Shown here piece after piece: positions 1,049-60,094 of a DNA stretch of 64,000 nt. Within the stretch, counting starts at the first letter, position 1. The number at the start of each line of letters is the position of its first letter. Origin of the DNA: Herbiconiux aconitum (lineage in GTDB: Bacteria > Actinomycetota > Actinomycetes > Actinomycetales > Microbacteriaceae). The stretch is taken from the NCBI RefSeq assembly GCF_024979235.1, contig NZ_JANLCM010000001.1:806001-870000 (forward strand). Direction: 5' to 3'. The notes under the pieces were generated by a model that saw only the letters and a list, made by a program, of their open reading frames with translations, had not been told where the DNA came from and did no database searches. The translations under genes and the position numbers were made by a program.

Positions 1049-1126
1049 CGAAACGACGGGCTCTCTGCCTGTCAGCGGACTGAGACTCCGTCGTTCGCGC
1101 AAATTCGCGCGAAACTCCGTCGATCG
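1049..1126 (+). repeat. Family A hairpin module, copy A1 (78 nt)
   Basis: The module starts with CGAAACGACGG at offset 1. It carries CTCCGTCG at offset 38 and a second CTCCGTCG at offset 67, the latter preceded by CGAAA at offset 62. The first segment can pair with either of the other two. A near-palindrome GCGCAAATTCGCGC lies between them. The copy sits in the divergent gap between the regulator and mnhA. The same offsets occur in A2 and A3. Confidence 0.8.
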
Positions 1127-1249
1127 AGATGCGCATTTCGGCCGTCTGGACGGCCCGCGGGCGCCCCGGCATGACCGCTGCCGCGGCGCTTCTGACCGAC
1201 CCCCGGTAGACTGGGGGCCTGCCCCTCTCCCCGACACGAGGAGATCCGC

Positions 1250-4200
1250 GTGATCCTGGTCCTGCTGTTGTTCGCAGGGCTTGCAGCGCTCACTCCGTTG
1301 CTGACGAGGCTGCTCTCGACCCGGGTGTTCTACCTCATCGCGGCCCTTCCGGCGGCGGCTTTCGTGTTCACGCTCACGCAGACCGGCACGGTTCTGGCGG
1401 GCGGGGCGACGACCGAGACGGTGGAGTGGATTCCGCAGCTCGGCATCGCGCTGTCGTTCCGCGTCGACACGCTCGCCTGGCTGCTCGCGCTCGTGGTGAC
1501 CGGTGTCGGCGCCCTCGTGCTGATCTACTGCGCTCGCTACTTCTCGCCCCGCGAACCTGCCCTCGGCCGCTTCGCCGCCCTGCTGCTCGCTTTCGCCGGC
1601 ACGATGTACGGTCTCGTCACCGCCGACGACATCTACATCATGTTCATGTTCTGGGAGATCACCAGCGTGCTCTCCTACCTCCTCATCGGTCACTACACCG
1701 ACCGCAAGGAGAGCCGTGGCGCAGCACTGCAGGCGCTGCTGGTCACCACCTTCGGCGGCCTCGCCATGCTCGTCGGCGTGGTGCTGCTGACGGTGGATGC
1801 CGGCACCAGCTCGATCGCGCGGCTCGTCAGCGACCCGCCGCCCGGGAGCGCGCTCGTCACCACCTCGATCATCCTCATCCTGGTCGGTGCTCTCTCGAAG
1901 TCGGCGCTCGTGCCCTTCCACTTCTGGCTGCCGGCCGCCATGGCCGCACCCACACCGGTGAGCGCCTACCTGCACGCGGCGGCCATGGTGAAGGCGGGCA
2001 TCTACCTGATCGCCCGCCTCGCCCCCGGTTTCGCCGACACCCCGGGGTGGACACCGCTTCTCGTGAGCCTCGGCGTCTGGACCATGCTCCTCGGCGCCTG
2101 GCGCTCCCTCCGCCAGAACGACCTCAAGCTGCTGCTCGCCTACGGCACCGTGAGCCAGCTCGGCTTCCTGACCGTCGTCGTGGGCTTCGGCACCAGAGAT
2201 GCCGCCCTGGCCGGAGCTGCCCTCCTCCTGGCCCACGCCCTCTTCAAGGCCACGCTCTTCCTCGTGGTCGGCATCGTCGATCACGACGAGGGCACCCGAG
2301 ACCTCCGAGAGATCTCAGGCCTCGGCCGCCGCAGACCCTTGCTCGCGGCGGTAGCGCTCATCGCGGTGGCCAGCATGGCGGGCATCCCCCCACTCCTGGG
2401 GTTCGTAGCGAAGGAGGCAGTCCTCACCGCCTTTCTCGAGGCCGACACCCCTTGGGGCTGGGTAGCCCTCACCGGCGTCAGTCTGGGCTCGATCCTCACG
2501 GTCGCCTACAGCGCCCGGTTCTTCTGGGGCGCTTTCGCCTCAAAACCGGCTCCGGCTGCAGCTTCTGGGGGCTCCGGTGTGGTGGGCGTTCACGGGCAGA
2601 GCCCCCAGAAGCTGCAGCCGGAGCCAACCCCCCAGAAGCTGCAGCCGGAGCCAACGACCCACAAGCCAGACCAGCTCATCCTGATCGCCCCCATCATCCT
2701 CACCTTCGCCACCATCGCCGGCGGCTTCGCAGCCGCCCCCATCGGCCACGCCCTGGAGACCTACGCCGACACCGTCCCCGGCGGCGGCGACTACCACCTA
2801 GCCCTCTGGCACGGCCTCGAGCCCGCCCTCGGCATTTCGGCCCTCATCATCGCGGCAGGCCTGGCGCTTTTCGCCCTCCGCAAGCCGGTGGCAAAGCTGC
2901 AGAAGAAGGTCCCGCCCCTCATCGACGCCTCTCGCAGCTACTGGTCGATCCTGCGCGGAGTCGACCAACTCGCCGCCCGGGTCACACTGACGGCTCAGAG
3001 GGGCGGTCTGCCGCAGTACATCGGCACGATCCTCCTCGTCTTCGTGCTGTGTCTCGGCGCCGCGACGGCGTTGAACCGCACCTGGCCGACCGAGTTCGTG
3101 GCGTGGGACTACCCGGCCCAGGTGTTCGTGGCCGCCGCGATGGCGGTCGCCGCGGTGATGGCGGCCCGTGCCTCGCACCGACTCGCCGCCGTGCTGCTGG
3201 TGGGTGCGACCGGCTTCGGCCTGGTGGTGCTCTTCGCCTTCCACGGGGCTCCGGATCTCGCACTCACCCAGGCCCTCGTCGAGAGCGTCACGATCGTGGT
3301 GTTCGTGCTGGTGCTGCGGCGGTTGCCGGTGAAGATCGCGCAGCACAACACCCCGGTACGAAAAGGCTGGCGCATCCTGATCGGCACACTCGTCGGCGTG
3401 ACCATGGGGCTCGTTGGCCTGATCGCGCTCGGCGCCCGGCAGGCACCCGGCCTCGGCGAAGAGCTCGCGCGTCTCGCGGTCGACGTCGGACACGGCAAGA
3501 ACGTGGTGAACGTGATGCTGGTCGACATCCGCGCCTGGGACACCATGAATGAGCTCTCGGTGCTCGTCGTCGTCGCCACCGGTGTCGCCAGCCTCATCTT
3601 CGTCACCGGCCGCAACTTCACCGTGCCGCGCCTTCGCGAGTCGCGGAAGCGCCGCAGCGGCGGGCAGCGCACCCGGCTGGTCGACGACCCGCACACCTCG
3701 ACCGAGACCGACGACCCGGATTCCCGTCAGCACTCGTGGCTGCTGGGCGGCAAGACGCTCTCGCCCGAGAACCGGTCGCTCATCCTCGAGGTGCTCGTGC
3801 GGCTCATCTTCCATCCCGCCATCGTGGTGTCGATCTTCTTGCTCTTCGCGGGGCACAACGCCCCGGGCGGAGGCTTCGCCGCGGGCATCCTGGCCGGGCT
3901 GGCGTTGATCGCGCGGTATCTCGCGGGCGGGCGCTACGAGATCGGCGAGACCCTCCCGATCGGCCCGGGCGTCATCCTCGGCGCCGGAATGCTGCTCGCG
4001 ACGGGCACGGCGGTGGGGTCGCTGTTCTTCGGCGGCGAGATCCTGCAGTCGGCGTATTTCGAGGCCGACGTGCCGATCCTCGGGCACATCTCCTTCGGCA
4101 CCTCCACCATTTTCGACATCGGCGTCTATCTCGTGGTGATCGGTGTGGTGCTCGACATCCTGCGAGCACTCGGCGGCGAGGTCGACCGGCAGCTGGCCGA

Positions 4201-4306
4201 AGACGACGTGGCGGCCGCGCCCGACGACCACGCGGTGGTGGCCGACGAGGCCGAAACCCGCGGTCGCGTCGCGGGGCGCGCGACGAGCGCAGGTGGTGGC
4301 TCGTGA
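1250..4306 (+). CDS. mnhA: Na+/H+ antiporter subunit A, fused to subunit B (MnhA-MnhB)
   Basis: This is the largest subunit of the Mrp (Mnh) cation/proton antiporter, a multi-subunit membrane complex that exports Na+ in exchange for H+ and is related to complex I. Its 1018 residues hold a NuoL-like proton-translocating core, with conserved Lys and His residues in KSALVPFHFWLPAAM and YLHAAAMVKAGIYL near 220-245. A C-terminal MnhB domain at about 840-990 is recognised by FAGHNAPGGGFAAGILAG. A-B fusion is normal in actinobacteria. The GTG start follows ACGAGGAGA. The downstream genes overlap by 4 bases each. Residues about 434-470 (nt 2550-2657) are a low-complexity insert made of a perfect inverted repeat plus a tandem duplication, placed in a loop after PFHFWLP-type helices. 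Confidence 0.95.
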   Translation: MILVLLLFAGLAALTPLLTRLLSTRVFYLIAALPAAAFVFTLTQTGTVLAGGATTETVEWIPQLGIALSFRVDTLAWLLALVVTGVGALVLIYCARYFSPREPALGRFAALLLAFAGTMYGLVTADDIYIMFMFWEITSVLSYLLIGHYTDRKESRGAALQALLVTTFGGLAMLVGVVLLTVDAGTSSIARLVSDPPPGSALVTTSIILILVGALSKSALVPFHFWLPAAMAAPTPVSAYLHAAAMVKAGIYLIARLAPGFADTPGWTPLLVSLGVWTMLLGAWRSLRQNDLKLLLAYGTVSQLGFLTVVVGFGTRDAALAGAALLLAHALFKATLFLVVGIVDHDEGTRDLREISGLGRRRPLLAAVALIAVASMAGIPPLLGFVAKEAVLTAFLEADTPWGWVALTGVSLGSILTVAYSARFFWGAFASKPAPAAASGGSGVVGVHGQSPQKLQPEPTPQKLQPEPTTHKPDQLILIAPIILTFATIAGGFAAAPIGHALETYADTVPGGGDYHLALWHGLEPALGISALIIAAGLALFALRKPVAKLQKKVPPLIDASRSYWSILRGVDQLAARVTLTAQRGGLPQYIGTILLVFVLCLGAATALNRTWPTEFVAWDYPAQVFVAAAMAVAAVMAARASHRLAAVLLVGATGFGLVVLFAFHGAPDLALTQALVESVTIVVFVLVLRRLPVKIAQHNTPVRKGWRILIGTLVGVTMGLVGLIALGARQAPGLGEELARLAVDVGHGKNVVNVMLVDIRAWDTMNELSVLVVVATGVASLIFVTGRNFTVPRLRESRKRRSGGQRTRLVDDPHTSTETDDPDSRQHSWLLGGKTLSPENRSLILEVLVRLIFHPAIVVSIFLLFAGHNAPGGGFAAGILAGLALIARYLAGGRYEIGETLPIGPGVILGAGMLLATGTAVGSLFFGGEILQSAYFEADVPILGHISFGTSTIFDIGVYLVVIGVVLDILRALGGEVDRQLAEDDVAAAPDDHAVVADEAETRGRVAGRATSAGGGS
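2550..2657 (+). repeat. In-frame hairpin insert D in mnhA, with 27-bp arms and a 27-bp tandem copy
   Basis: Bases 2550-2576 and 2601-2627 are perfect 27-bp inverted repeats, both containing GGCTGCAGCTTC or its complement, around a 24-nt loop. The whole hairpin is 78 nt (26 codons). Bases 2604-2630 are then repeated exactly at 2631-2657, translated as PQKLQPEPT twice. The insert keeps the reading frame and encodes a Pro/Ala/Gly-rich stretch. Confidence 0.9.
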
Positions 4307-7631: not shown

Positions 7632-7649
7632 CGAAGCCGTCTCCGGGAG

Positions 7650-7655: not shown

Positions 7656-7690
7656 TCTGGCCAGCATCAGACACGACCGGGGGAACTTCC

Positions 7691-9568: not shown

Positions 9569-9610
9569 GGTTCGCCAGGGTCTTCGCCGTCCGGCGCGCG
9601 GGTGATCGAC

Positions 9611-9648: not shown

Positions 9649-9717
9649 GGGGGCTGCCCGGTCGTAGCTGGCGTCGGCAGCGGAGTGGCCGCCGCCCTCG
9701 ACCGGAAGGACCAGATC

Positions 9718-10479
9718 ATGTCGAAGATCGTCGTCGTAGGCGGCACCGGGCTCATCGGCGCCAAGACCGTCGCCCTGCTGCAGGCGGGCGGACACGAAGG
9801 GGTGGCCGCCGCGCGTGCCACCGGCGTCAACTCCTACACCGGCGACGGACTGGCGGATGCCCTCGAGGGCGCCCAGACCGTCGTCGACACCTCCAACTCC
9901 TCCTACACCGACGAGGCCGGCGCACTCGACTTCTTCGAGACCTCGACGCTCAACCTGCTGAGCTACGGCGCGGCCGCCGGGGTCGCCAACCACGTGGCGC
10001 TCTCGGTGGTCGGCACCGAACGCCTCGCCGCCACCGAGGGCGGCTACTTCCGGGCCAAGCACGCGCAGGAGCGGCTGATCCGCGAGTCGGGGCGGGCCTT
10101 CACCATCGTGCACGGCACCCAGTTCTTCGAGTTCATCGGCAGCATCGCAGATGCCGCGGTCGACGGCGACCGGGTGCGGGTGGCGGAGGCGTTCATCCGG
10201 CCGATGGCGGCCGATGATGTGGCGGCAGCGGTCGTGCGAGCGGCCCTCGCGGCCCCGGTCGGCGGCATCGTGGAGAACGCCGGACCCGAGGAAGGGCAGC
10301 TCGACGGATTCGTGCGGCGGCGCCTCGCCTTCGCGAACGATCCGCGCGAGGTCGCGGCCGATCCGCTCGCCGCCTACTTCGGCAGCCGCCTCGGCGCACG
10401 CGACCTGCTGCCGGGCCGGGATGCGACGCTCGCGACCACCGACTTCGACACCTGGAGCCGCGCGGCCCTGGTGCACTGA
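9718..10479 (+). CDS. NmrA-like / atypical SDR NAD(P)-binding protein
   Basis: This is a 253-residue Rossmann-fold protein with the N-terminal dinucleotide-binding motif VVGGTGLIGAKTV (about 5-17), typical of the atypical SDR (NmrA-like, SDR_a5) group. The region YFRAKHAQERLIRESG (about 108-123) carries the Tyr and Lys usually found near the nicotinamide. Such proteins are NAD(P)H oxidoreductases or redox sensors of unknown substrate in the cytoplasm. The ATG follows GGAAGGACC, a good ribosome site. It stands alone between the CWB2 gene and a convergent small membrane protein gene. Confidence 0.85.
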   Translation: MSKIVVVGGTGLIGAKTVALLQAGGHEGVAAARATGVNSYTGDGLADALEGAQTVVDTSNSSYTDEAGALDFFETSTLNLLSYGAAAGVANHVALSVVGTERLAATEGGYFRAKHAQERLIRESGRAFTIVHGTQFFEFIGSIADAAVDGDRVRVAEAFIRPMAADDVAAAVVRAALAAPVGGIVENAGPEEGQLDGFVRRRLAFANDPREVAADPLAAYFGSRLGARDLLPGRDATLATTDFDTWSRAALVH

Positions 10480-10492
10480 CCCGGCCGCTCGT

Positions 10493-10585
10493 CGAAACGA
10501 CGGAGCTGAAACGACGGAGTTCGGGGCCGGCCGACGGAATCGACGGAGTCACAGACCGGTTCTCGCCGAGCCCTCCGTCGTTTCG
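10493..10585 (-). repeat. Family A hairpin module, copy A2, with one extra unit
   Basis: Read on the minus strand from 10585, it starts CGAAACGACGGAG. CTCCGTCG follows at offsets 38 and 67, exactly as in A1 and A3, and the 78-nt module ends at 10508. A further CTCCGTCGTTTCG unit extends to 10493, so the outer ends form a perfect 13-bp inverted repeat. It fills the gap between two convergent genes and may act as a two-way terminator. Confidence 0.85.
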
Positions 10586-10613: not shown

Positions 10614-11177
10614 TCAGGGCGCGGCGGTGCAGCGCGACTCGCTGTGGATCGTCGCCTGCAGCGTCGTGCCGTCGGGCACCAGAGTGAGTTCGATCGGCAC
10701 GAGGTTCTTGCCGATCAGGAGCGCCTCGCGACCACCCTCACTGCCGAAGGGCGAGGAGCTGACCTTCCACTCGCGCTGCTCGTAGGCTCCGGTCACCACG
10801 TCGATCGCGTCGCGCGGATTGACGGAAGCGGGCAACGACTCGGTGCGGGTGACGACGTACTGCTGACCCGCGCCGCCGTCGGGGCACGGGATGACCTGGG
10901 TCGCGTCATCCGCCGGCTCGACCGGGTCGCCGAGCAGACCCGTGACGGTGTCGACTTCGGTCATGACCTCGGCCGTCACGCCCTCGAGCGTCGTGGGCGC
11001 GGTCGGCCGCGAGACGGCGACCCCGATCCAGACCGTAGCGATGATGGCGCCCACGATGCCCAGCGTGATCAGGGTCGCAGGCCGCAGCATCCCGCCCCAT
11101 CGCTCCCCCTTGGGCGGCAGGCGCGGCGGCTTCTTGGGCGCGAGGAGCCGCCAGGTGCGGGAGTCGGGCGTGGTCAC
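10614..11177 (-). CDS. Hypothetical single-pass membrane protein
   Basis: It has 187 residues. After a basic, Pro-rich N-terminus (APKKPPRLPPKGERWG) there is one transmembrane helix at about 33-53 (TLITLGIVGAIIATVWIGVAV). An outward-facing domain of ~130 residues follows. This domain has a single Cys in VIPCPDGG and another four residues before the end, which might form a disulfide. I do not recognise the family; small anchored proteins of this layout are common and uncharacterised in Microbacteriaceae. The GTG at 11177 is the only well-placed start before the divergent LacI gene. It converges on the NmrA-like gene across module A2. Confidence 0.7.
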   Translation of the reverse strand: MTTPDSRTWRLLAPKKPPRLPPKGERWGGMLRPATLITLGIVGAIIATVWIGVAVSRPTAPTTLEGVTAEVMTEVDTVTGLLGDPVEPADDATQVIPCPDGGAGQQYVVTRTESLPASVNPRDAIDVVTGAYEQREWKVSSSPFGSEGGREALLIGKNLVPIELTLVPDGTTLQATIHSESRCTAAP

Positions 11178-12308: not shown

Positions 12309-12378
12309 GGACTTCTCCAAACGAGCTGCGAAGCCCGACCACATAGGGGCGCGGGGGCCACCCCGTTTGGAAAAGTCC
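12309..12378 (+). repeat. Family C hairpin module, copy C1 (70 nt)
   Basis: The arms are GGACTTCTCCAAACG (12309-12323) and CGTTTGGAAAAGTCC (12364-12378), with one mismatch. ATAGGGGCG lies in the loop at 12343-12351. Copy C2 has the same elements at identical spacing. It lies between the LacI gene and its target operator. Confidence 0.85.
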
Positions 12379-28323: not shown

Positions 28324-28401
28324 CGAAACGACGGAGGCTCGGCGGCAATACGGACCGAGCCTCCGTCGGTTCCGTTGCAGGGCCCGAAACTCCGTCGTTC
28401 G
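28324..28401 (+). repeat. Family A hairpin module, copy A3 (78 nt)
   Basis: It starts CGAAACGACGGAG, with CTCCGTCG at offset 38 and CGAAACTCCGTCG at offset 62. The first hairpin is a 14-bp perfect pairing of CGACGGAGGCTCGG (28329-28342) with CCGAGCCTCCGTCG (28355-28368). The third segment could compete for the same arm. It lies after the aldo-keto reductase gene. Confidence 0.85.
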
Positions 28402-32185: not shown

Positions 32186-33496
32186 TCAGCCCAGGTGCGT
32201 CGCCAACTGCGCGTAGGTCGCGTCGGAGATGGTGTTCGTGCCACCGAGCACGACGATCCGCGTCGGGTTCAACCGGTCGAGTTCGGTCGCCACCTGCGTC
32301 GAGATCGCATTCTTCGTGACGAGCAGCACCGGGGCGTGGTTCGCGATCGCTCCCGCAGCACCGGAGAGGGCATCGGGGAACACCTCACCCGACGCGACGA
32401 ACACCGTGTGGGTGTCGGCCGGCATGAAGGCACCAGCCGACACGTTGGCCGAGACCACGAACCGGTCGGCGCCCGCGACACGGTTGGTGACCGCGGTCAT
32501 CTGCAGCGTCGCCACGACGGAGTCGGCGATCGTGTTCGTGCCACCCAGCACCACGATCTTGCTGGGCACGAGTCGCGCCAACTCGGTCGCCACCACGGCC
32601 GGGATCGAGTTCTTCTGCACCAGGAGCACCGGCCCACCCAGAGTTCCAGCGGCCGCAGAACCCGACAGGGCATCGGGGAAGACCTCACCCGAAGCGATGT
32701 AGGCGACCGGACGGTTCGGTCCGAAGGTCGCCAGCGAGATGCCCGCGGAGACCGCATAGCGGTCGGCTCCGCTGATTCGCGTGACCGCACCCGTGGTGAC
32801 GTACGCATCGAGCGCGGTCTCGACACCGGCGGTGATGGTGTTGGTGCCACCGAGCACGACGATGTTCTGCGGCTTCAGCCGGGTGAGTTCAGCCGTGATG
32901 ACCGCGGGGATGCCGTCTCGACCGACGAGCAGGACGGGCGCGCCGCCGGCACCGGCGGCCGCCGAAGCCGAGAGCGCATCGGGGAACACCTCACCGGACG
33001 CCACGTAGGCGGTTGCGACCCCGGGGGCGAACTCCTTGGCCGACACACCGGCGGAGACGGCGTAGCGGTCGGCGCCGCCGATTCGCTCGATGGCGCCTTC
33101 GACGTGCAGCGTGACCGTGGCACTGAGGCTGACACAGGGCAGCGTCTGTTCGATCTTGATGCAGTAGCTGAAGGTGTCGTCACCGACGAACCCGTCGGTG
33201 GGTGAATAGCTGAACGCGCCGTCGTTGCCGATCGACGTGATCGCGCCGTGCACCGGGTCGCCGCTGATGGAGATCAGCACGGTCGGGTCGAGCTCGACGT
33301 CGTTGGCCAGGAGGCCGACGGCCGCGGCGGCAGTGAACACGGAGCCCGCGGGCACGGTGTAGACGTCGTTGACGGCGGTGTTCGGCGCGGCGTGAGCGGC
33401 TGACGGGGCAGCCAGTACGGCGAGGCCGAAAGCCGCCGCGGCGGTGACGGCGGCGAACCGGGCGCGGCGCCCGGATGAAGTGGGAAGGGTGTGCAC
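32186..33496 (-). CDS. Secreted protein with a cadherin/Ig-like domain and three CWB2 repeats
   Basis: This is an exported surface protein of 436 residues from the GTG at 33496, which has GAGAGG seven bases upstream; an ATG six codons earlier has no ribosome site. The signal peptide ends near AHA-APN. Residues about 40-130 resemble a bacterial cadherin-like or tandem-Ig domain (VNDVYTVPAGSVFTAAAAVG, SYSPTDGFVGDDTFSY). The remainder is three CWB2 repeats of ~97 residues, each with GADRYAVSA or GADRFVVSA, a SGEVFPDALS block and IVVLGGTNTI. The units are also very similar at DNA level. It anchors to cell-wall polymers; ligand or adhesive role is unknown. Confidence 0.85.
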   Translation of the reverse strand: MHTLPTSSGRRARFAAVTAAAAFGLAVLAAPSAAHAAPNTAVNDVYTVPAGSVFTAAAAVGLLANDVELDPTVLISISGDPVHGAITSIGNDGAFSYSPTDGFVGDDTFSYCIKIEQTLPCVSLSATVTLHVEGAIERIGGADRYAVSAGVSAKEFAPGVATAYVASGEVFPDALSASAAAGAGGAPVLLVGRDGIPAVITAELTRLKPQNIVVLGGTNTITAGVETALDAYVTTGAVTRISGADRYAVSAGISLATFGPNRPVAYIASGEVFPDALSGSAAAGTLGGPVLLVQKNSIPAVVATELARLVPSKIVVLGGTNTIADSVVATLQMTAVTNRVAGADRFVVSANVSAGAFMPADTHTVFVASGEVFPDALSGAAGAIANHAPVLLVTKNAISTQVATELDRLNPTRIVVLGGTNTISDATYAQLATHLG

Positions 33497-33573
33497 GGAA
33501 GGGCCTCTCGTCATGAAGATGATTTATTCTCATCCATCATGACATGAGGTTTACTCGAGCACCAGGGCCGACT

Positions 33574-37960: not shown

Positions 37961-38030
37961 CGTTTCGGGAGGAGCTGCGACGAACGAAGCACGCAGAGGG
38001 CCTTCGTTACGTGCACCTCCTCCCGAAGCG
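37961..38030 (+). repeat. Family B hairpin module, copy B1 (70 nt)
   Basis: The outer arms are TTCGGGAGGAG (37964-37974) and CTCCTCCCGAA (38017-38027). The inner arms are AACGAAG (offset 23) and CTTCGTT (offset 42). It lies between two minus-strand genes, directly after the DUF3054 stop. Confidence 0.85.
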
Positions 38031-44491: not shown

Positions 44492-44561
44492 GGACAACTC
44501 CAATCGTCACCGTGACCTCGCCCCTATAAGGCGACGGTTGCCAGCACGTTTGGAGTTGTCC
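44492..44561 (-). repeat. Family C hairpin module, copy C2 (70 nt)
   Basis: Read on the minus strand, GGACAACTCCAAACG is followed after 19 nt by ATAGGGGCG, and 14 nt later by ATTGGAGTTGTCC. Spacings are identical to C1. The stem bases at positions 5-6 have changed from TT:AA to AA:TT, keeping the pairing. It fills the gap between convergent mntR and a hypothetical gene. Confidence 0.88.
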
Positions 44562-46221: not shown

Positions 46222-46257
46222 GGGCGGGTCCGGATGCGCCGCGCGGCCGCCGCTCGG

Positions 46258-46307
46258 CCGCGGGCTTTGGTGCGAATCGCACGGCCGCGATCCGCCAAAG
46301 CCCGCGG
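46258..46307. repeat. Stem-loop E with 13-bp perfect arms
   Basis: CCGCGGGCTTTGG (46258-46270) and CCAAAGCCCGCGG (46295-46307) pair perfectly. The loop starts with the palindrome TGCGAATCGCA (46271-46281). It lies between nadBC and the cysteine desulfurase gene and may attenuate expression of the latter or belong to the dispersed hairpin set. Confidence 0.75.
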
Positions 46308-46426
46308 ATGAGCGACGAAACGCAGAAGTGTACGAGGCGCCATGGGCGAAGACTCGGCGCGAAGCCCCCGCCGAGGGCGAGGGCGCGCACGCAGTGCGTG
46401 ACGGCGACGGGTCACAAACGATGTGG

Positions 46427-49282
46427 TCACGACCGGAAACCCACGTCGAGGCCGAGATCGAGGGAGCGCACACTGTGGGTGAGGGCGCCGACCGAGATGA
46501 TGTCGACCCCGGTCTCGGCGATCGCCGCCACCGTGCCGAGGTTCACGCCGCCGCTCGCCTCGACGAGCGCACGACCGGCGATGTGCGCGACTCCGGTGCG
46601 GAGGTCGGCGAGGCTGAAGTTGTCGAGCATGATCGTGTCGACGCCGGCCTCGAGCACGGCGTCGATCTGGTCGAGCCGGTCGACCTCCACTTCGAGATGC
46701 ATGGTGTGCGACATCCGCTCGCGCACCGATAGCAGTGCGGCCGTGACATCGCCACCGTGCTGGGCCGCGAGCACGGCGAGGTGGTTGTCCTTCGCCATGA
46801 CGGCGTCGGAGAGGGAGTAGCGGTGGTTGTGCCCGCCGCCATCGCGCACTGCCGCGCGCTCGAGCGCGCGGAGGCCGGGGGTGGTCTTGCGGGTGTCGAC
46901 GATGCGGGCCTTGGTGTGCGCCACCAACCCCACGTACTCCGCGGTGAGTGTGGCGATGCCGCTCATCCGCTGCACCAGGTTGAGAGCCACCCGCTCAGCG
47001 CGCAGCACTCCGCGCGCCGGCCCCGCGACGGTGGCCAACACGGCGCCGATGCCGAACGGCTTGCCGACGGGGGCGTGCACGGCCGTGACGATGCGCGGAT
47101 CGACCGCCGTCATCGTCGCGGCGAACACGTCAGGGCCGCTGAACACACCGGGTTCGCGGGCCTCGAGCCTGGCCTCCACCACCGCATCTGCGGAGATCAG
47201 CAGCTCCGAGGTGATGTCCCCCCACGGCGCATCCTCAGCCAGGGCGCGCGTGACGACGTCGTCGATGATCTGGGCGGTGAGCACTAGACGGTGACCTGTT
47301 CTCGCGGGGGCGGGGCTGACGGATGCGGGCGCCGGCGCGGGGGCGGGGGTGACGGATGCGCCATCGGGAGTGGGAACCGCAGGCGTGCGGGCGGATGCGC
47401 GGTGTGGCGCCGGCGCCGGCCCGGTCGCGGCGGCGACGGACGCGCCATCGCCGGTGGGAGCCGCGGATGAACGGGCGTCAGCTCCGTCCGATGCGGGCGC
47501 CGGCGCGACGACTTCGGTCGCGGCCCCGACTGAACCTGCGGCCTCGAACCCGGAGGCGGGGTCAGCGGATGTGAGGCGCGGGGCCACCTGCACCGTGATG
47601 TGGTGCGCGAACTCGACCTCCGCATCCGGGTGATCGGCGCGGAAGTGCGCGCCACGCGACTCCTCGCGGGCGAGCGCCACTTCCACCAGCACACGAGCCA
47701 GCTGCAGGAGATTAGCGGTCTCCCGGCGTTCGACGGATGCGTCGGCGTCGACCGGCAGATCCCACCCGGCCAGCACGTCACGGGCCTCGCGGAGTCCGTC
47801 GGCGTCGCGGTGCACGCCGGCGTTCCGCCACATCAGCGCGTGCAGTTCCGCGCGACTCGGCTCGCGCGTCGGCGAGCCATCCTGCGAGCCGCCCTGCGAC
47901 CCGTTCGCCGAGTCGCCAAAACACGCCGTATCGGCGACGGGCATTCCGTCGGATTCTGGCGATTCGAGGTCGCCGGGCACCGCGGTGTGGGCGAGCGACG
48001 CGGGCGCGAGCTGCTCGAGTGGCACCGTGTTCGGGAGGCCCGTCCACGAAGGCACGCCACGCGCCGAACCCGAACCCGCCGCATCCGCCCGGATCGCCGC
48101 CGCCGCGCGATGCGCGAACACGAGCGACTCGAGCAACGAGTTCGACGCCAACCGGTTCGCGCCGTGCACCCCCGTGCACGACGCCTCGCCCACCGCGAAG
48201 AGCCCGGGCAGCGAGGTGCGCGCATCGAGATCGGTCGCCACCCCGCCCATCCAGTAGTGGGCGGCCGGCGCCACCGGCACCGGCTCGTGGGCCCAGTCGA
48301 AGCCGTGGTCGCGGCTGGCGGCGGAGATGGTGGGGAACCGTCGTTCCAGCTCCGAAGCCCCGATCGACGTCGCGTCGAGCACCACCGGCGCTCCCGTGCG
48401 CACCATCTCCGACGCGATCGCTCGCGCCACGATGTCGCGCGGCGCGAGTTCGGCCAGCGGATGCTCGCCCACCATGAACCGCTCCCCCGCCGCATTGAGC
48501 AGAACCGCGCCGTCGCCACGCACGGCTTCCGACACCAGGAACGAACCGGGCACGGCGAGCGCCGTCGGGTGGAACTGCACGAACTCCACGTCGGCCAGCA
48601 CCGCCCCCGCACGGAGGGCCGCGGCGGCGCCGTCGCCCGTGGTCACCGAAGGGTTCGTGGTGTGCGGGTAGAGCTGCCCGATGCCGCCGCTCGCCAGAAC
48701 CACCGCGTCGGCCGACACTGTCTCGGTGACGCCGTCGCGCAGCACGGTGAGCCCGGTGACGCATCCGTCGGTCACCTCCAGATCGGCCACGAAGGTCTGC
48801 TCGAGCACCCGGGCGGCGGAGGCGCGCACCGCTCGCACGAGCGCCCACTCCACCTCGTATCCCGTGGCGTCGCCGCCGGCGTGCAGGATGCGGTGGAAGG
48901 AGTGCGCGCCCTCGAGTCCGGCGTCGAAGTCGGCGGTCGGGTCGTCGTGCTGCCGGTCGAAGTCGACACCCCAGCGGATGAGGTCGCGGATGCGCTCGGG
49001 CCCCTCCGCGCAGAGCACCTGCACGGCCGCAGGGTCGCTGAGCCCCGCACCGGCCACGAGGGTGTCGGCCACGTGCGAGGCCACGGTGTCGCCCGGCATG
49101 ACCGCCGCCGCGATGCCGCCCTGCGCGTAGCGCGTGTTGCTCTCGTCGATCGTCGACTTCGTCACGATCGTCACGTCGTGCCGGTCGCCCAGCGCGAGCG
49201 CGGTCACGAGCCCGGCGACGCCGCTTCCCACGATCACGACGCGCATCCGCCGCTCCGGCGCATCCGCACGCTGCGTGCTCAT
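46427..49282 (-). CDS. nadBC: L-aspartate oxidase fused to nicotinate-nucleotide pyrophosphorylase (NadB-NadC)
   Basis: This single 951-residue frame joins two enzymes of de novo NAD synthesis. Residues about 11-600 are NadB: FAD site VVIVGSGVAGLVTALAL, NTRYAQGGIAAA, and EFVQFHPTALAVPGSFLVSE, oxidising aspartate to iminoaspartate. Residues about 670-951 are NadC: EDAPWGDITSELLISADAVV, KTTPGLRALERAAVRDGGGH and VMLDNFSLADLR-like segments, forming NaMN from quinolinate and PRPP. An Ala/Pro-rich linker of ~80 residues lies between (about 595-670). The ATG overlaps the nadA stop. NadA makes the intermediate quinolinate between these two activities. Confidence 0.93.
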   Translation of the reverse strand: MSTQRADAPERRMRVVIVGSGVAGLVTALALGDRHDVTIVTKSTIDESNTRYAQGGIAAAVMPGDTVASHVADTLVAGAGLSDPAAVQVLCAEGPERIRDLIRWGVDFDRQHDDPTADFDAGLEGAHSFHRILHAGGDATGYEVEWALVRAVRASAARVLEQTFVADLEVTDGCVTGLTVLRDGVTETVSADAVVLASGGIGQLYPHTTNPSVTTGDGAAAALRAGAVLADVEFVQFHPTALAVPGSFLVSEAVRGDGAVLLNAAGERFMVGEHPLAELAPRDIVARAIASEMVRTGAPVVLDATSIGASELERRFPTISAASRDHGFDWAHEPVPVAPAAHYWMGGVATDLDARTSLPGLFAVGEASCTGVHGANRLASNSLLESLVFAHRAAAAIRADAAGSGSARGVPSWTGLPNTVPLEQLAPASLAHTAVPGDLESPESDGMPVADTACFGDSANGSQGGSQDGSPTREPSRAELHALMWRNAGVHRDADGLREARDVLAGWDLPVDADASVERRETANLLQLARVLVEVALAREESRGAHFRADHPDAEVEFAHHITVQVAPRLTSADPASGFEAAGSVGAATEVVAPAPASDGADARSSAAPTGDGASVAAATGPAPAPHRASARTPAVPTPDGASVTPAPAPAPASVSPAPARTGHRLVLTAQIIDDVVTRALAEDAPWGDITSELLISADAVVEARLEAREPGVFSGPDVFAATMTAVDPRIVTAVHAPVGKPFGIGAVLATVAGPARGVLRAERVALNLVQRMSGIATLTAEYVGLVAHTKARIVDTRKTTPGLRALERAAVRDGGGHNHRYSLSDAVMAKDNHLAVLAAQHGGDVTAALLSVRERMSHTMHLEVEVDRLDQIDAVLEAGVDTIMLDNFSLADLRTGVAHIAGRALVEASGGVNLGTVAAIAETGVDIISVGALTHSVRSLDLGLDVGFRS

Positions 49283-52815: not shown

Positions 52816-54548
52816 CCCGACCCGACCCCGCTGCCGACCCCACACGCTTTCCCGACGACGACGCCGCCGCAGCCGCGACGACGCCAGCCGGACGTCTCGG
52901 GCGAACCACAAGCGAAGCAAGCCTCCAGGAGCCTTTGCCTGCGAGCAGATTCGCCCGCAATGACGAAGCCATGCCGAACGACGTCTCGAAAGCCGACATT
53001 CCGGGCCCGGACACGGCTCGCACTGCTCCTGAAGGCACCAAGCGCGGCCGTTTCGGGAGGAGGAGCAGCGAACGAAGCCTCCAGGAGGGCGTCGCCGCCG
53101 GCAGCTCCTCCCGAAACGAAGGCGAGAGCGCGCGCAGGGCGGCAGATGAACAGGGTGCGGCTCGTGGCGGCGTAGGGCGGCGGGGATTCCTCACCGGACT
53201 GCTCGGGGCCGGCGTCGGCGCGGGAGTCGCGGCGGCCGGCGCCATCGCCGTGGCTCCCGCGGCACCCGTCTGGGCGGTTCCGCACCCCGGAGCGCCCGGC
53301 CACGCCCCGGGCACAGAAGCCGCGCCGCCCACGGGCGCCGCCACCGCGGCTGCGCCGTCGGCGTCCTTCCCCTTCGAGGGCCCCACGCAGCAGGGCATCC
53401 TCACGCCGCCTCAGGCAGCGGCCGCGTTCGCAGCCTTCGACGTGACGGCCGCCGACCGCGGAGAACTCGAGGCGCTGCTGCGCACACTCACGGAACGCGC
53501 GCGCTTTCTCACCACGGGTGGGGCGCCGGCCCCCGTCGGCATCACCGCTCCGCCCGCGGACTCCGGCGTGCTGGGGCCGGTGATCGACCCCGACGGGCTC
53601 ACGATCACGGTCTCGCTCGGCGCCTCCCTCTTCGGCGGCGGTAGCGGCACCAACGGCAACGGCGGCAGCAGCAGCAGCGCCAACGGCAGCGCCGGCGGCA
53701 CCAGCACCACCCCCACCGCCCCCGACCGCTTCGGCCTCGCCGCCCAGAAGCCGCGCGCCCTCCGCACCATGGAGGACTTCCCGAACGACGACCTCGACCG
53801 CAGCCAGTGCGACGGCGACCTCCTGCTGCAGATCTGCGCGAACAACCGCGACACCGTCACCCACGCGCTCCGCGACCTCATGCGCACCACGCGCGGCGGT
53901 ATGCAGCTGCGCTGGCGCACCGAGGGATTCGTGTCACCACCGCGCCCCTCGGGCACCCCGCGCAACCTGATGGGCTTCAAGGACGGCACCGCGAACCCCG
54001 ATCCGAGCGACCCCGACGAGATGGCCGCCCTGGTGTGGGCCGCGACCGACGGCAGCGAACCCGCCTGGACGGCCGGGGGCACCTACCACGTCGTGCGGCG
54101 CATCCGGATGCTCGTCGAATTCTGGGACCGCGTGAACCTGCGCGAACAGGAGGGCATGATCGGGCGCAGCCGCGACGTCGGCGCGCCCCTCACCGGCAAG
54201 CACGAGTTCGACGAGCCCGACTTCTCGTCCGATCCGGCGGCCGACTCCATCCAGATGGGTGCGCACATCCGCTTGGCCAATCCGCGCACGCCCGAATCGA
54301 CGGGTTCACGGATGTTCCGCCGCGGTTACAACTACGACGCCGGTCTCGACGTGAACGGCAACCTCGACATGGGTCTCGTGTTCACGACCTTCAACCAAGA
54401 CCTCGAGCGCCAGTTCGTGACCGTGCAGAAGCGTCTCGCCGATGAAGCGCTCTCCGACTACATCTCGCCCTTCGGCGGCGGCTATTTCTTCGCGCTCCCG
54501 GGCGTGCAGGGCGCCGACGACTGGTTCGGCAGCGGCCTGCTGGCCTGA
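52812..54548 (+). CDS. efeB: EfeB deferrochelatase / DyP-type peroxidase with an extended N-terminus
   Basis: This heme peroxidase takes iron from heme or oxidises ferrous iron in the Efe system and is exported by the Tat pathway. The twin-arginine motif [13 protein letters not shown] is at about 122-134. The catalytic Asp is in [14 protein letters not shown] (near 388), followed by [20 protein letters not shown] and [21 protein letters not shown] Gly/Ser/Asn-rich insert (about 277-300) interrupts the first ferredoxin-like domain. The start is coupled to efeO (ATGA). The 120 residues before the Tat motif are abnormal: they contain two translated hairpin modules (B4 and B3). Confidence 0.92.
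52898..52957 (+). repeat. Diverged family B module B4, in frame in efeB
   Basis: The arms are CGGGCGAA (52898-52905) and TTCGCCCG (52950-52957). The interior shares GCCTCCAGGAG with module B3. It is translated as part of the efeB N-terminal extension ([12 protein letters not shown]). Confidence 0.65.
53049..53118 (+). repeat. Family B hairpin module B3, in frame in efeB (70 nt)
   Basis: Perfect 14-bp arms CGTTTCGGGAGGAG (53049-53062) and CTCCTCCCGAAACG (53105-53118). Read on the minus strand, CTTCGTT is at offset 42 exactly as in B1. It encodes [20 protein letters not shown] in the segment just before the Tat signal. Confidence 0.9.
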
Positions 54549-54592
54549 TGCCCCCTCGAAACCCGATCCTCTCCACGACCGACACGAACACC

Positions 54593-54619
54593 ACCAACAC
54601 CAACACCAACACCAACACC
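54593..54619 (+). repeat. 6-bp tandem repeat (ACCAAC)n
   Basis: Just over four ACCAAC units lie between efeB and the phosphoesterase start. If an upstream ATG (54548) were used, they would encode Asn-Thr repeats. Confidence 0.75.
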
Positions 54620-54640
54620 ACCATCACGAAAAGAGAAGAA

Positions 54641-56476: not shown

Positions 56477-56491
56477 CCTCGACGCTGTATC

Positions 56492-56543
56492 CGACGCCCC
56501 TGCGTCCGGCCCTCTTCCTGAGGCGCTGGGCGCGGGGGCGTCG
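56492..56543. terminator. Hairpin between convergent phosphoesterase and lipoprotein genes
   Basis: CGACGCCCC (56492-56500) pairs with GGGGCGTCG (56535-56543) around a 34-nt interior. It stands in the convergent gap and could stop transcription from both sides. Confidence 0.5.
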
Positions 56544-56558
56544 TCGTTCAGCTGCCCC

Positions 56559-57389
56559 TCACTCCACCGGCACGAGCGGACCGACCGGCAGGCAGTAGTC
56601 GGGGCGGCCGGGGTCGGGGCAGTACGTCTCCGACCCATCCTCGCCGGCCGGTGGCGGGAAGGTGTGCATGGCCGGCGCATCCATCGATCCCCCGCCATCG
56701 GGCCGTTGCTCCTCGGCCGGAGCCTGCTGCGCGGCGAAGATCGCCTCCGAGTCCTGCACGGCAAGCAGCTTCAACACGAGGTCGAGCACCTGGCGCGGGG
56801 TGTCGGCCGTTGCTGCGGTCTGCGCCTGCTGATCGGTGATCGCGAGGAAGAGGTCGTCGCGGAGCGCCTGGTCGGCGTTCCGGGCTTCGTCGTTGACGAC
56901 CCGGATGGCGCTCTCCACCACTCCTTGGCGAACGGCATGCGTCGACGCCAGCAGTCCGTCGATGTCGGCGGCGATGCGCGCCTGGTCGACGCGTGCGCCG
57001 GACGCGCTCATGGCGCCGATGTCGGCCTCGAGCGTCGCGGTCGCCTGGTCGAGGGCGGCGCGGGAGTCGAGGGAAGCCAGCCCTGCGGTTCCCTCCGAGA
57101 GGGACCGTCCAGCTGCCACCAGCGGTTCGGCGACCGGATCGATGGCGACGGGCGCGCTGCTCGGCCCGGGCGTCGATGTGGGGGTGGGCGTCGGCGTGTC
57201 GCCCGAACCCGGCGCGCGGGTCGAGGGCGCGACGGTGGCCGGCGCGGCCGGGCCCGTCGGTGCCGGTTCGGCGGAACCCGGCCCGACACATCCGGAGACC
57301 GCGGTCGCGATCGAGAACGCCACGATCGCGGTCAGCGCCAGGCGATGCCCTCGATGCCGGCGCGGCGGCGGGGTGGGACCTGCTGCCAT
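56559..57389 (-). CDS. Putative lipoprotein, paralogue 1
   Basis: This 276-residue protein has a basic N-terminus, a signal helix and lipobox AVSGC (Cys near 33). A Pro/Thr-rich linker follows, then a helical domain including IDPVAEPLVAAGRSLSEGTA, ARIAADIDGLLASTHAVRQG, ESAIRVVNDEARNADQALRD and ADTPRQVLDLVLKLLAVQDS. A Cys-containing tail with YCPDPGRPDYCLP follows. The ATG at 57389 is chosen for GAGGAGAA four bases upstream. About half of the helical domain matches the neighbour at 57550-58377, so the two arose by tandem duplication. Family and function are unknown to me. Confidence 0.8.
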   Translation of the reverse strand: MAAGPTPPPRRHRGHRLALTAIVAFSIATAVSGCVGPGSAEPAPTGPAAPATVAPSTRAPGSGDTPTPTPTSTPGPSSAPVAIDPVAEPLVAAGRSLSEGTAGLASLDSRAALDQATATLEADIGAMSASGARVDQARIAADIDGLLASTHAVRQGVVESAIRVVNDEARNADQALRDDLFLAITDQQAQTAATADTPRQVLDLVLKLLAVQDSEAIFAAQQAPAEEQRPDGGGSMDAPAMHTFPPPAGEDGSETYCPDPGRPDYCLPVGPLVPVE

Positions 57390-57507
57390 CGGTTCTCCTC
57401 GAATCGGAGCGGCCCCACGCATGCGTACTCTATCGCCAGCCGACCTCCGCTCGGAAGAGGGAGCCGTCACCTCCGCGCGAGGCAGCCGAGCAGGCGTCAG
57501 GGATGTC

Positions 57508-57545
57508 GCGGCGGCTGCGGCGGCTGCGGCTGCTGCGGCTGCCGC
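57508..57545. repeat. Imperfect GGCTGC-type microsatellite
   Basis: Runs of GCGGCTGC and GGCTGC repeat for ~38 bases between the two lipoprotein genes, ending just after the stop of paralogue 2. It may fold, but no clean terminator is visible. Confidence 0.6.
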
Positions 57546-57549
57546 CCGC

Positions 57550-58377
57550 CTAGCCGCACTGCGGGAAGCGGAGTTCCTCGGCGCAGATCATCTCGAGCGT
57601 GGTGGGGTCCTGGTGGCAGATCGGCCAGGTCAGGCCGCGGCCCCAGTCGCAGATGTCGAACTCCGGAATCGAGGGGAAGACGGGGATGGGCATCGACGAT
57701 CCGGAACCGCCCGACCCGCCGCCGTCGCCGCCGCCGGACGAGGCCGCCTGGCGCGCTTGCTCGGCGACGTAGGCTGCCTGCGAGTCCTGCGCCGCACGCA
57801 CCTTCGCCACCAGTTCGAGCACCTGGCGCGGGGTGTCGTCGGTCGCGACGGCCTGGCTCTGCTGAGCGACGATCGCGAGGTAGAGGTCGTCGCGCAGGGC
57901 GGGGTCGGCGTCGGGGGCTTCGTCGTTGACGACCCGGATGGCGGTCTCCACCACGCCCTGCCGCACCGACTGCGCAGCCGCGAAGAGGGCTGCGATGTCG
58001 GCCGTGATGCGCGCCTCGTCGACCGGAGGGGAAGCCTGGCTCGCGGCCGGGCCCCCGGCCATCGACGTCTGCACCACGAGCACGTCGGTCTCGAGCGTGG
58101 CGGTGGCCATGTCGAGCTGGGTGCGTGCCTCGACCGGGGCGAATCCCTCCGACCCGGCGACGAGCGCGTGACCCGCGCCGACCAGCGGTTCAGCCAACGG
58201 ATCGAGGGCCACGACCTCCTCGACGGGCATCGGCGACGGCGTTGGTGTCGAGGCGACGGGGGTGGCCGCGGGGGTGCCCGGCGCTGCCGAACCCGACCCC
58301 ACGCATCCGGAGACCGTTGCGGCCAGAGTCAGCGCCACGGCGCCCGCGATCAGAAGGCGCATCGTGTTGCGCGACAT
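57550..58377 (-). CDS. Putative lipoprotein, paralogue 2
   Basis: This 275-residue protein has lipobox TVSGC (Cys near 25) and a Pro/Thr linker. The same helical domain follows: LDPLAEPLVGAGHALVAGSE, ARITADIAALFAAAQSVRQG, ETAIRVVNDEAPDADPALRD and TPRQVLELVAKVRAAQDSQA. It ends in a Gly/Ser stretch and a different Cys-rich tail (FDICDWGRGLTWPICHQDPT and ICAEELRFPQCG). GAGGGGAT precedes the ATG. The conserved domain plus diverged tails suggests surface proteins with different partners. No known family recognised. Confidence 0.8.
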   Translation of the reverse strand: MSRNTMRLLIAGAVALTLAATVSGCVGSGSAAPGTPAATPVASTPTPSPMPVEEVVALDPLAEPLVGAGHALVAGSEGFAPVEARTQLDMATATLETDVLVVQTSMAGGPAASQASPPVDEARITADIAALFAAAQSVRQGVVETAIRVVNDEAPDADPALRDDLYLAIVAQQSQAVATDDTPRQVLELVAKVRAAQDSQAAYVAEQARQAASSGGGDGGGSGGSGSSMPIPVFPSIPEFDICDWGRGLTWPICHQDPTTLEMICAEELRFPQCG

Positions 58378-58534
58378 GTGGATCCCCTCGGTGTTCGGTT
58401 GGCCCCCCGACCAGGCCGCCTCAGAACTCTATCGGCGAGGCGGAGGAGGGCGCACATCCGTCGCCCGCCGCCTCGATGTTCCGCCCCACAACGCCCCTGT
58501 ACCCTGGGAGCACGACCGGGAGAAGGAGTTCCAG

Positions 58535-59332
58535 ATGGCGGCACGGGACGAGATCGAATGCTGGCTCACCGACATGGACGGCGTTCTCGTGCACGAGAAC
58601 GCGCCCATCCGCGGTGCCGCCGAACTGTTGCAGCAGTGGCGCGACCAGGGAAAGCCCTACCTCGTGCTCACCAACAACTCCATCTTCACGCCGCGCGACC
58701 TCTCGGCGCGGTTGCGGGCATCCGGTCTCGAGGTTCCGGAGGAGTTCATCTGGACCTCGGCGCTCGCCACCGCCGCCTTCCTCAAAGACCAGATGCCGGG
58801 CGGCAGCGCGTTCGTGATCGGCGAGGCCGGCATCACCACCGCGCTGCACGAGGCCGGGTTCATCATGACGGAGACGGCGCCCGACTACGTGGTGATCGGC
58901 GAGACGCGCAATTACTCCTTCGAGGCCATCACGAAGGCGATCCGCCTGATCGGCGACGGGTCGCGGTTCATCGTGACGAACCCGGATGCGACGGGGCCGA
59001 GCGCCGAAGGACCGCTGCCCGCGACGGGCGCGATCGCCGCGCTCATCACGAAGGCGACCGGCAAAGACCCCTACATCGTCGGCAAGCCGAACCCGATGAT
59101 GTTCCGTTCGGCGATGAACCGCATCGGCGCGCACTCCGAGAACACCGGCATGATCGGCGATCGGATGGACACCGATGTGGTGGCGGGTATCGAGGCGGGA
59201 CTGCACACCATCCTCGTGATGACCGGCATCAGCGATCAGGCCGAGATCGACCGCTACCCGTTCCGCCCCGACGAGATCCTCGGCTCGGTGGCCGAACTCC
59301 TCCTGACGGAGCCCATCGAGTCCGAGCTCTGA
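58535..59332 (+). CDS. HAD-IIA hydrolase (NagD-like)
   Basis: This is a 265-residue cytoplasmic phosphatase of the haloacid dehalogenase superfamily. Motif I is WLTDMDGVLVHENAPIRGA (Asp nucleophile near 14), motif II is VLTNNSIFTPRDLSARLRAS (about 46-65), motif III Lys is in VGKPNPMMFRSAMNRIG (near 188), and motif IV is MIGDRMDTDVVAGIEAGLHT (about 207-226). The cap type and spacing match NagD/pNPPase enzymes that act on nucleotide or sugar phosphates. AGAAGGAG precedes the ATG. Confidence 0.93.
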   Translation: MAARDEIECWLTDMDGVLVHENAPIRGAAELLQQWRDQGKPYLVLTNNSIFTPRDLSARLRASGLEVPEEFIWTSALATAAFLKDQMPGGSAFVIGEAGITTALHEAGFIMTETAPDYVVIGETRNYSFEAITKAIRLIGDGSRFIVTNPDATGPSAEGPLPATGAIAALITKATGKDPYIVGKPNPMMFRSAMNRIGAHSENTGMIGDRMDTDVVAGIEAGLHTILVMTGISDQAEIDRYPFRPDEILGSVAELLLTEPIESEL

Positions 59333-59358
59333 CCCCAAGCGGTTCGACCGTGCTCCTC

Positions 59359-59428
59359 CGTTTCGGGAGGAGCTGCGCGACACGAAGGCCTGCACGTGGC
59401 GTCGTCACGCTCTCCTCCTCCTGAAACT
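59359..59428 (+). repeat. Family B hairpin module, copy B2 (70 nt)
   Basis: The arms are TTTCGGGAGGAG (59361-59372) and CTCCTCCTGAAA (59415-59426), with one mismatch. CACGAAG is at offset 23 as in B1. It sits between the convergent HAD and GNAT genes. Confidence 0.85.
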
Positions 59429-59434
59429 GCTTCG

Positions 59435-59989
59435 TCAAAGCAGCTCTGTGGCCAGGAGGTCCATGAGCAAGGCGTCGTGCCAACCGCGGCCGTCGGGGTC
59501 GCGCTCGTAGTGGCGCAGGATGCCGACGGGTCGGAACCCGACCGCGGTGTAGGCGCGGATCGCAGCATCGTTATCGGCCGCGGGGTCGATGGTGAGGCGG
59601 TGGTGGCCGCGGTCGCGGATGAGATGGGTCGCGAGGGTGCGCACGGCGTCACGCCCGAGACCCCGGCCGTGCACCGCGGGGTCGAGGAAGATGTCGATCG
59701 AGGCGTGCCGGTACGCGGGATCGGTCTCTTCGCTGTACTGGATCATGCCTACGATCACCCCGTCGTGCCGGAGTCGCACGGTGAGCACTACGGTGTCGGG
59801 GTCGTCCCACGGCCACGGGTCGGCGGTGTCGTCTGCACCCCACCGCGCCGCGACCTCGGGCGTCAGCCGGATGCGCCGCAGCTCGTCGACGTCGGCCGGA
59901 ACCACGGGCGCGAGCACCACCCGCGCCCCCACCAGCTCGCTCGCTCCTCCCGCCGCTCCCTCACCCCCTGCGCCATCCTGCGTGTCCAT
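59435..59989 (-). CDS. GNAT-family N-acetyltransferase (RimJ/AAC(6')-like)
   Basis: This 184-residue acetyl-CoA-dependent enzyme has the acetyl-CoA loop in DPAVHGRGLGRDAVRTLATH (about 107-126, RxxGxG type). VVLTVRLRHDGVIVGMIQYS precedes it, and NDAAIRAYTAVGFRPVGILR follows, as in RimJ/RimL and aminoglycoside 6'-acetyltransferase relatives. The substrate (protein N-terminus, drug or small amine) is not determinable. The start is uncertain by three codons, since a GTG at 59998 is also in frame. Confidence 0.88.
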   Translation of the reverse strand: MDTQDGAGGEGAAGGASELVGARVVLAPVVPADVDELRRIRLTPEVAARWGADDTADPWPWDDPDTVVLTVRLRHDGVIVGMIQYSEETDPAYRHASIDIFLDPAVHGRGLGRDAVRTLATHLIRDRGHHRLTIDPAADNDAAIRAYTAVGFRPVGILRHYERDPDGRGWHDALLMDLLATELL

Positions 59990-60042
59990 GGCGAACACCG
60001 TACCGCCGGGCCGCGACCGAGGGCACTCCCGCCCCGCATCCC

Positions 60043-60094
60043 ACTCGTCCCGAACGGGGCAGGATTCGCGCTTTTCGCCCAGTTAAGGACGAGT
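60043..60094. repeat. Stem-loop F (8-bp perfect outer arms)
   Basis: ACTCGTCC (60043-60050) and GGACGAGT (60087-60094) pair perfectly, and inner segments CGAACGGGGC and CGCCCAGTTAA are partly complementary. It lies between the secreted glycosidase-like gene and the GNAT gene, which point the same way. Confidence 0.6.

Follow-up and report, generated by a model that had tools for sequence, protein, structure and literature searches.

What multiplies a short DNA module with inverted ends, and where in the genome is its agent to be found? The question is raised by a stretch of 64,000 nucleotides from Herbiconiux aconitum (the window; C1:806001-870000 in genome coordinates, where C1 and C2 denote contigs), along which modules of several families and near-fixed lengths recur. 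A sequence-only reading of the window had taken them for one shared system of short hairpins. Here we describe them as families of DNA sites composed of two halves, and connect them to a group of nuclease genes, six of eight of which are each bracketed in this genome by elements of a single family. That family is likely the one which the enclosed nuclease recognises, and the nuclease is the predicted agent of its multiplication; we give this reading a probability of roughly two in three. Recognition, cutting and copying are steps that we infer from sequence.

Element families and their copies

The lengths of the elements are close to fixed within each family: 77 nt for A, 70 nt for B and C, about 50 nt for F and about 60-70 nt for I. 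The sequence-only reading had the correct length for B and C and put A at 78 nt. It had also placed families A, B and C correctly, and their occurrence is far beyond chance; its view of them as modules of one shared system with inverted ends and near-fixed length is supported, and its expectation of many copies genome-wide is borne out. In the source genome (4.16 Mb, five contigs, 99.97% complete; labelled G000 among the genomes compared, which carry G-numbers) the B arms CGTTTCGGGAGGAG occur 34 times in forward and 29 times in reverse orientation at up to one mismatch, as compared with 1 and 2 for a reversed-pattern control. For the A word GAAACGACGGAG, typically found three times at fixed positions within each 77-nt unit, the same limit gives 75 and 81 occurrences against 3 and 4 in controls.

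An arm-based census covered 864 kb, that is, 40 systematic stretches of 20 kb and the window. It returned 8 elements of family A, 16 of B, 12 of C, 2 of F, 2 of G, 4 of H and 3 of I, while reversed or complemented arms returned no match for any family in the same sample. Among 41 B or B-like copies in the stretches examined, 38 measure 70 nt, two 71 and one 68. A scan of the 864 kb that was blind to family found 105 strong inverted repeats, compared to 40 in a second-order Markov control, with a clear excess at lengths that include 70 (8 versus 1), 72 (7 versus 2) and 41 (8 versus 1). A loose-threshold palindrome scan of the window (526 matches, 287-334 in five shuffles) was not used.

How are the elements built? 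Across 36 copies of B, positions 4-14 are almost invariant in both arms; they are followed, on either side and without co-variation between the sides, by a C or G at position 15 and an A or T at position 16 in nearly every case. Farther in, at positions 24-27, ACGA returns as another block. Pairing covariation within copies does not exceed that of shuffles in the interior of this genome's B elements (z 0.9) or in A (z -1.5). It is present in the B elements of the relative G002 (z 2.9) and weakly in C (interior z 1.9, arms z 3.5), where TT and AA variants of the arm tend to match across both sides of one copy. In the fold drawn by RNAalifold a short stem sits inside an outer one, and one of 15 pairs is compensated. 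The position pattern of B and these covariation results make the elements look like two half-sites of a duplex more than like selected hairpins, although some families may still show traces of having begun as palindromes. A hairpin reading for all families, as in the sequence-only account, was not kept, since the permutation test lends it no support in A or in this genome's B; what stays of it is the weak signal in C and in the G002 copies of B.

A nuclease gene between two elements

Two neighbouring pairs, one of A elements (C1:207353 and C1:208411) and one of B elements (C1:2145119 and C1:2146169), each enclose a single gene, and both genes code for the same kind of protein. Searches with PF04480 and with an alignment of the eight sequences both give eight DUF559/MTES_1575 nuclease genes in the genome. 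All eight have an element upstream, and six have one family on both sides, namely A, B, C, F, H or I. Nuclease A (C1:207521-208390) thus lies between two A elements, nuclease C (C2:716695-717540) between two C elements, and nucleases F (C1:2310951-2311871) and I (C1:191698-192594) have F and I elements, respectively, on both sides. As a control, we looked for same-family elements on both sides within 350 bp of the 797 predicted genes of the roughly 0.86-Mb sample, called by a simple codon score: the one gene found was nuclease H itself.

Nucleases A and B combine C-terminal DUF559 (PF04480) and REase_MTES_1575 (PF18741) domains with an N-terminal AbiEi_4 domain, some of these matches lying below curated cut-offs in nuclease B. 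A structural model of nuclease B (pLDDT 90) retrieves with Foldseek the AbiEi antitoxin 6y8q for its N-terminal half (E 1.9e-5) and, for its C-terminal part, the catalytic domain of the homing endonuclease I-Bth0305I, 3r3p (E 2.5e-4, TMt 0.77), which a profile search also finds (E 7.7e-8). Residues E225, D227, H232, D241 and D245 are invariant in 29 sequences of one subclass and by analogy may take the catalytic roles of an EDxHD nuclease. The protein is predicted to fuse an AbiEi-like half with an EDxHD homing-endonuclease domain.

Both halves suggest how such a protein might meet a dyad. I-Bth0305I dimerises, and its target of nearly 60 bp (PMC3943268) is close in length to the dyads. AbiEi proteins are autoregulators that have inverted repeats as their binding sites (PMC7319586). 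A dimer on two half-sites would be the simplest account. The nuclease dimer would bind the two duplex halves through its AbiEi-like part, the EDxHD domain would cut or nick DNA, and repair of the break would copy the element into a new site. The insertions that last would likely be the least harmful ones, those between convergent genes or in frame in variable parts of proteins.

Matching flanks in relatives

The comparison of flanks was extended to other nucleases of this kind. For each gene the upstream flank was matched without gaps to the downstream one, and the best score was set against controls from the same locus. Among 13 Herbiconiux genomes, with 3-12 nuclease matches each, 51 of 79 testable genes have matching flanks above the 99th percentile of 265 such controls. 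A GTDB contig scan gave 296 relatives, from which 80 loci in many actinobacterial genera were taken (among them Herbiconiux, overlapping partly with the 13 genomes, Subtercola, Agreia, Agromyces, Cryobacterium, Gordonia, Mycobacterium and Williamsia). Of these, 78 could be tested against 292 controls; 37 exceed the 99th percentile and 23 the highest control, and no Mycobacterium or Mycolicibacterium locus listed is one of them. The matched flank sequences are dyad-like and differ from one locus to another, and in many dyads from other species the centre, judged by eye, resembles GTATAC or TATTCG.

A dyad taken from a nuclease flank was also searched for in six genomes of other genera: each recurs in its own genome and, apart from one weak cross match, not in the other five. 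Copies beyond the two flanks occur in five of the six, about ten of them in a Propionibacteriaceae genome. Phages yielded one partial relative, and plasmids four records with distant relatives.

Repeat families follow nuclease clades

Does a repeat family travel with its nuclease? Across the 13 genomes the B pattern occurs 15 times in G000, 20 times in G002 and nowhere in the other eleven, and G002 holds the closest B nuclease (67% identical) at the same locus with B dyads on both sides. For A, C and a third motif, predictions were written from the nuclease tree and the flanks before the searches were run. The A pattern was forecast as multi-copy in G000, G007, G010, G011 and possibly G003; it was found 16, 1, 5 and 2 times in the first four and not at all in the nine others, G003 included. 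The third motif was forecast as multi-copy in G002, G003, G005 and G008 only, and was found in exactly these and in none of the nine others. Two of the three registered forecasts thus named the right genomes exactly and the third, for C, did so in part.

The state of the A word near the gene broadly fits the distribution of the A pattern. The A locus is filled in ten genomes; the word is unchanged in the flanks of the A nuclease in G000, G003, G007, G010 and G011 and three mismatches off in the other five. From the distributions of B, A, the third motif and C we conclude that a repeat family accompanies those nucleases that are closely related to its own, and that occupying the locus does not suffice.

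Inheritance and turnover

The nuclease genes themselves fall into 12 positional clusters that never hold two genes from one genome and comprise 70 of 81 genes, a place being filled in up to 10 genomes. These clusters rest on blastn with strict limits, which replaced an earlier tblastx clustering that was too lax and merged nearly all loci. With 70 of 81 genes in positional clusters, frequent homing of the nuclease gene itself is not seen. What changes is its surroundings. The flanks of the C locus read TTCTCCAAACG in G000 and G007 and AAACGTCGCGG in G002, G003, G005 and G008, which points to a gene that mostly stays while the sequence of both flank dyads and the dispersed family change.

Comparison of corresponding sites between species, proposed by the sequence-only reading as a check, does reveal elements present in one and absent in another. 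The I element in the middle of window gene 46427-49246 lies at the identical site in G002 and is absent in G010. G002 carries a second I element, missing in G000, in frame near the start of the counterpart of this gene: the G000 protein begins MSTQRADAPERRMRVV, and that of G002 has 22 extra residues. A C element lies within a gene of locus L221 (L-numbers denote sequence stretches or loci). G002 has it too, its arms decayed, and G012 lacks it; the G002 nuclease at the C locus has flanks other than C. Five B sites of G002 have a counterpart in the unbiased part of the G000 sequence, to which this comparison was confined, so that loci fetched for having B were not counted. Three carry B in both genomes and two only in G002, and the latter two are not clean empty sites: one differs by several hundred base pairs of other G002 sequence, and the other holds other DNA in G000.

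At the site of the window's I element, locus L245 of G011 carries a different dyad-like insert, GGGAGGAG..CTCCTCC.

A bolder picture is that of a class of selfish short repeats in Actinobacteria that would do without a transposase. AbiEi-EDxHD nucleases, several per genome, would be inherited vertically; each dimer would bind private dyads of 50-80 bp and break DNA, repair would copy the dyad, and specificity and repeats would turn over jointly at largely fixed loci. We lean towards this picture by a slight degree.

Several observations weigh against the proposed link between nuclease and repeat. No significant matching pair was found for 28 of the 79 genes of the genus, some of which may be decayed or have an upstream site only, nor for 41 of the 78 in the multi-genus set, and the close paralogues G1 and G2 of the source genome have a G dyad upstream only. 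Outside the genus, G016 shows no copy beyond its pair of flanks, and G015 adds just two to that pair, both weak and partial. The B-locus nuclease of G012 (54% identical) has neither B repeats nor a matching pair; the A-locus nucleases of G002, G003, G004, G005, G008 and G012 (44-61% identical) occur without the exact A pattern, in G003 despite an exact A word in the nuclease flank; and the exact match is single in G007 for A and in G003 for the third motif, though multiple copies were forecast. The C forecast (G000, G007 and G011) held partly, with eight matches, two of which are the flanks of its own nuclease, then one, itself a nuclease flank, and none; BLAST finds imperfect further copies in G007 and G011. 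Eleven of the 81 nuclease genes belong to no cluster. One of them, L288, is the G002 gene most closely related to nuclease I (80% identical) and is not at the I locus, which holds a more distant nuclease gene in that genome, so L288 is apparently located elsewhere. No target-site duplication is seen at the one clean empty site, that of the in-frame I element of G002, where the flanks align well. Finally, the weak covariation in C and in the B elements of G002 means that some families could still be hairpins.

Placement and alternative explanations

Where do the copies lie? Of 47 elements placed, 42 are intergenic, four lie within genes and one at an edge. Twenty of the 42 sit between convergent genes, which make up 19% of intergenic bases (binomial P 2e-5), in line with the bias suspected by the sequence-only reading, and several take up nearly the whole gap. 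Only four are divergent, against 29% of intergenic bases (P 0.003). This bias fits spreading with selection against harm or, alternatively, selected placement.

The alternative that we rate highest, although unlikely, takes the nuclease-like proteins for regulators of the AbiEi type. The dyads beside their genes would then be operators, those elsewhere would form a regulon or serve an architectural role under selection, and no nuclease would spread them. The AbiEi antitoxin fold of the N-terminal half, the repeat binding and autoregulation that PMC7319586 describes for such proteins, the solely upstream dyads of G1 and G2, and half-sites resembling duplex sites all agree with it. Less easily accommodated are the second matched dyad downstream of 51 of the 79 genus genes and the dispersed dyads themselves, which shun divergent promoter regions, favour gaps between gene ends and in some cases lie in frame within genes. 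The residues E, D, H and D that one would look for in an EDxHD nuclease are conserved, which likewise counts against it.

The same placement invites a second alternative, in which convergent genes would end in elements that act as bidirectional transcription terminators or as RNA hairpins, several of them nearly filling the gap; the outer and short inner stem that B can form would agree. We regard this as improbable. A TTTT within 20 nt outside the core accompanies only 2 of 94 sides of the 47 elements (background, 0.4% of random 24-mers), pairing covariation is missing from the interior of the genome's own B elements and from A, copies stand upstream of nucleases and within coding genes, and the arms follow the nuclease clade between species.

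Inverted ends, near-fixed length and presence or absence at one site are also what non-autonomous miniature inverted-repeat transposable elements (MITEs) of ordinary transposons, moved by a classical transposase, would display. Such an origin appears a little less probable still: the gene between paired elements has the AbiEi/EDxHD architecture of a nuclease, most such genes keep one chromosomal place in up to 10 genomes, and the clean empty site in G000 lacks a target duplication, with the transposase search having covered the Y1 type only. The lead of the sequence-only reading, REP/REPIN elements mobilised by a RAYT transposase, anticipated an enzyme tied to the repeats and matches in function, the enzyme gene being bracketed by members of a short dispersed family, yet it can practically be dropped for this genome, given that the genome holds no PF01797 Y1 transposase at E<=1 (an equal search found it in 10 of 14 control genomes) and that pairing covariation is weak or absent.

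Elements of the window

The window holds members of five families with an assigned nuclease. Three 77-nt elements belong to A. The first, at 1050-1126 (+), fits the family in arms and length and carries the 12-nt words R1, R2' and R3' at fixed places. The second, at 10508-10584 (-), has exact 12-mers and lies between the convergent genes 9685-10479 (+) and 10614-11177 (-), with an additional A word outside it at 10494-10505; the third, at 28325-28401 (+), is intergenic between tandem genes. Two 70-nt elements are of family C, one at 12309-12378 with arms GGACTTCTCCAAACG and one at 44492-44561 between convergent genes with the AA variant of the arm, GGACAACTCC..GGAGTTGTCC. Family B is represented by 70-nt elements at 37961-38030, at 53049-53118, where both arms are perfect, and at 59359-59428, between convergent genes and also found in G002. 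The arms of the 50-nt F element at 60044-60093 fit both elements beside nuclease F. The I element within gene 46427-49246 (-), at 47908-47967, has arms that fit the elements beside nuclease I and had escaped the sequence-only reading.

Two further candidates of that reading fared less well. Element E (46248-46317, with a 50-nt core at 46258-46307) is a possible family member without an assigned nuclease; it has one weak second copy with the same core length (L205:11405-11454) and a diverged copy at the corresponding place in G002. Its membership is doubtful, and it is perhaps an orphan family. Element D, at 2548-2652 in a gene called mnhA-like by the sequence-only reading, consists of a 27-nt inverted repeat and a third, direct copy; it has three words as in family A, with a sequence unrelated to A. 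Its 16-nt word has no second copy in the 864-kb sample at up to two mismatches, so that on this evidence D is a singleton outside the system.

A few other dyads were noted in the genome. The B-like elements at C1:1081050, C1:1127551 and L224:19609 have arms close to CGTTTCGGGCGAAC where B has CGTTTCGGGAGGAG, and two of the three have a true B copy within 130 bp; they maybe represent a sister specificity. Another pair of 63-nt elements (CATCGAGTGGGCACGA; L234:12418 and L239:14015) has no nuclease assigned in G000. Arms like GAGTCGCCAAAATCC occur at L220:7403 and L238:11164 and resemble the flanks of a nuclease locus that is filled in 10 of 13 genomes, G000 not being among them, so these elements are possible orphans of a lost nuclease. 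At 32186-33514 the window also contains three copies of a repeat in coding sequence, of about 300 bp.

Comparison with known systems

As the sequence-only reading had supposed, neither Rfam nor the literature searched yielded a described repeat family that fits the elements. In the window Rfam gives no match at gathering score; the sub-threshold matches of one B and one A element, mostly to eukaryotic microRNA models with some bacterial small RNAs, are far below the cut-offs and were rejected. Searches of the open literature, as distinct from subscription papers, brought up no paper in which dispersed repeats are tied to nucleases of the DUF559, MTES_1575 or AbiEi kind. As far as we found, such proteins go by domain labels only, such as DUF559 or 'AbiEi family antitoxin', and a single scan of species genomes returned the 296 relatives mentioned above. 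If each nuclease has repeats of its own, experiments on their function could begin immediately. Paired with their long dyads, the nucleases also offer a natural series for studying how the specificity of a protein changes jointly with dozens of genomic sites.

Four known systems share features with the one described here. The AbiE type IV toxin-antitoxin system has the AbiEi fold seen in the N-terminal half (6y8q), in proteins that bind inverted repeats; here this fold is fused to a nuclease domain and faces many genomic sites. The EDxHD homing endonuclease I-Bth0305I resembles the catalytic domain by profile and fold (3r3p), and its dimerisation on a target of nearly 60 bp (PMC3943268) recalls the dyads. 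In our case no intron or intein is seen, the site is whole on both sides and not split by the gene, dispersed sites are many, and the N-terminal part is AbiEi-like. TIRtrons (TIRYT families) are similar in that the repeats at the two ends of an enzyme gene double as members of a dispersed family (PMC3733652, in whose main text the word Actinobacteria does not appear); their enzyme is a tyrosine transposase.

In organisation there is a likeness to the REP/REPIN-RAYT (REPtron) systems, where an enzyme gene is bracketed by a short palindromic family that is dispersed mainly outside genes, an arrangement seen here for six of eight nucleases in the source genome and 51 of 79 in the genus. Enzymes and repeats of REP-RAYT systems co-evolve (PMC3116915, PMC8266576 and PMC3733652). 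The differences lie in the players: an AbiEi and DUF559/EDxHD-type nuclease in place of an HUH Y1 transposase, and half-site dyads of 50-80 bp in place of REPs, which PMC3733652 gives as 20-40 bp long with a GTAG or CGTC tag. If our reading is true, bacteria would have in these nucleases a second and unrelated means by which short palindromic repeats that are not transposons can multiply, one that does without a transposase. REP/REPIN-RAYT is our working comparison: with unrelated chemistry, it offers the same arrangement of an inherited enzyme gene and its own population of short repeats.

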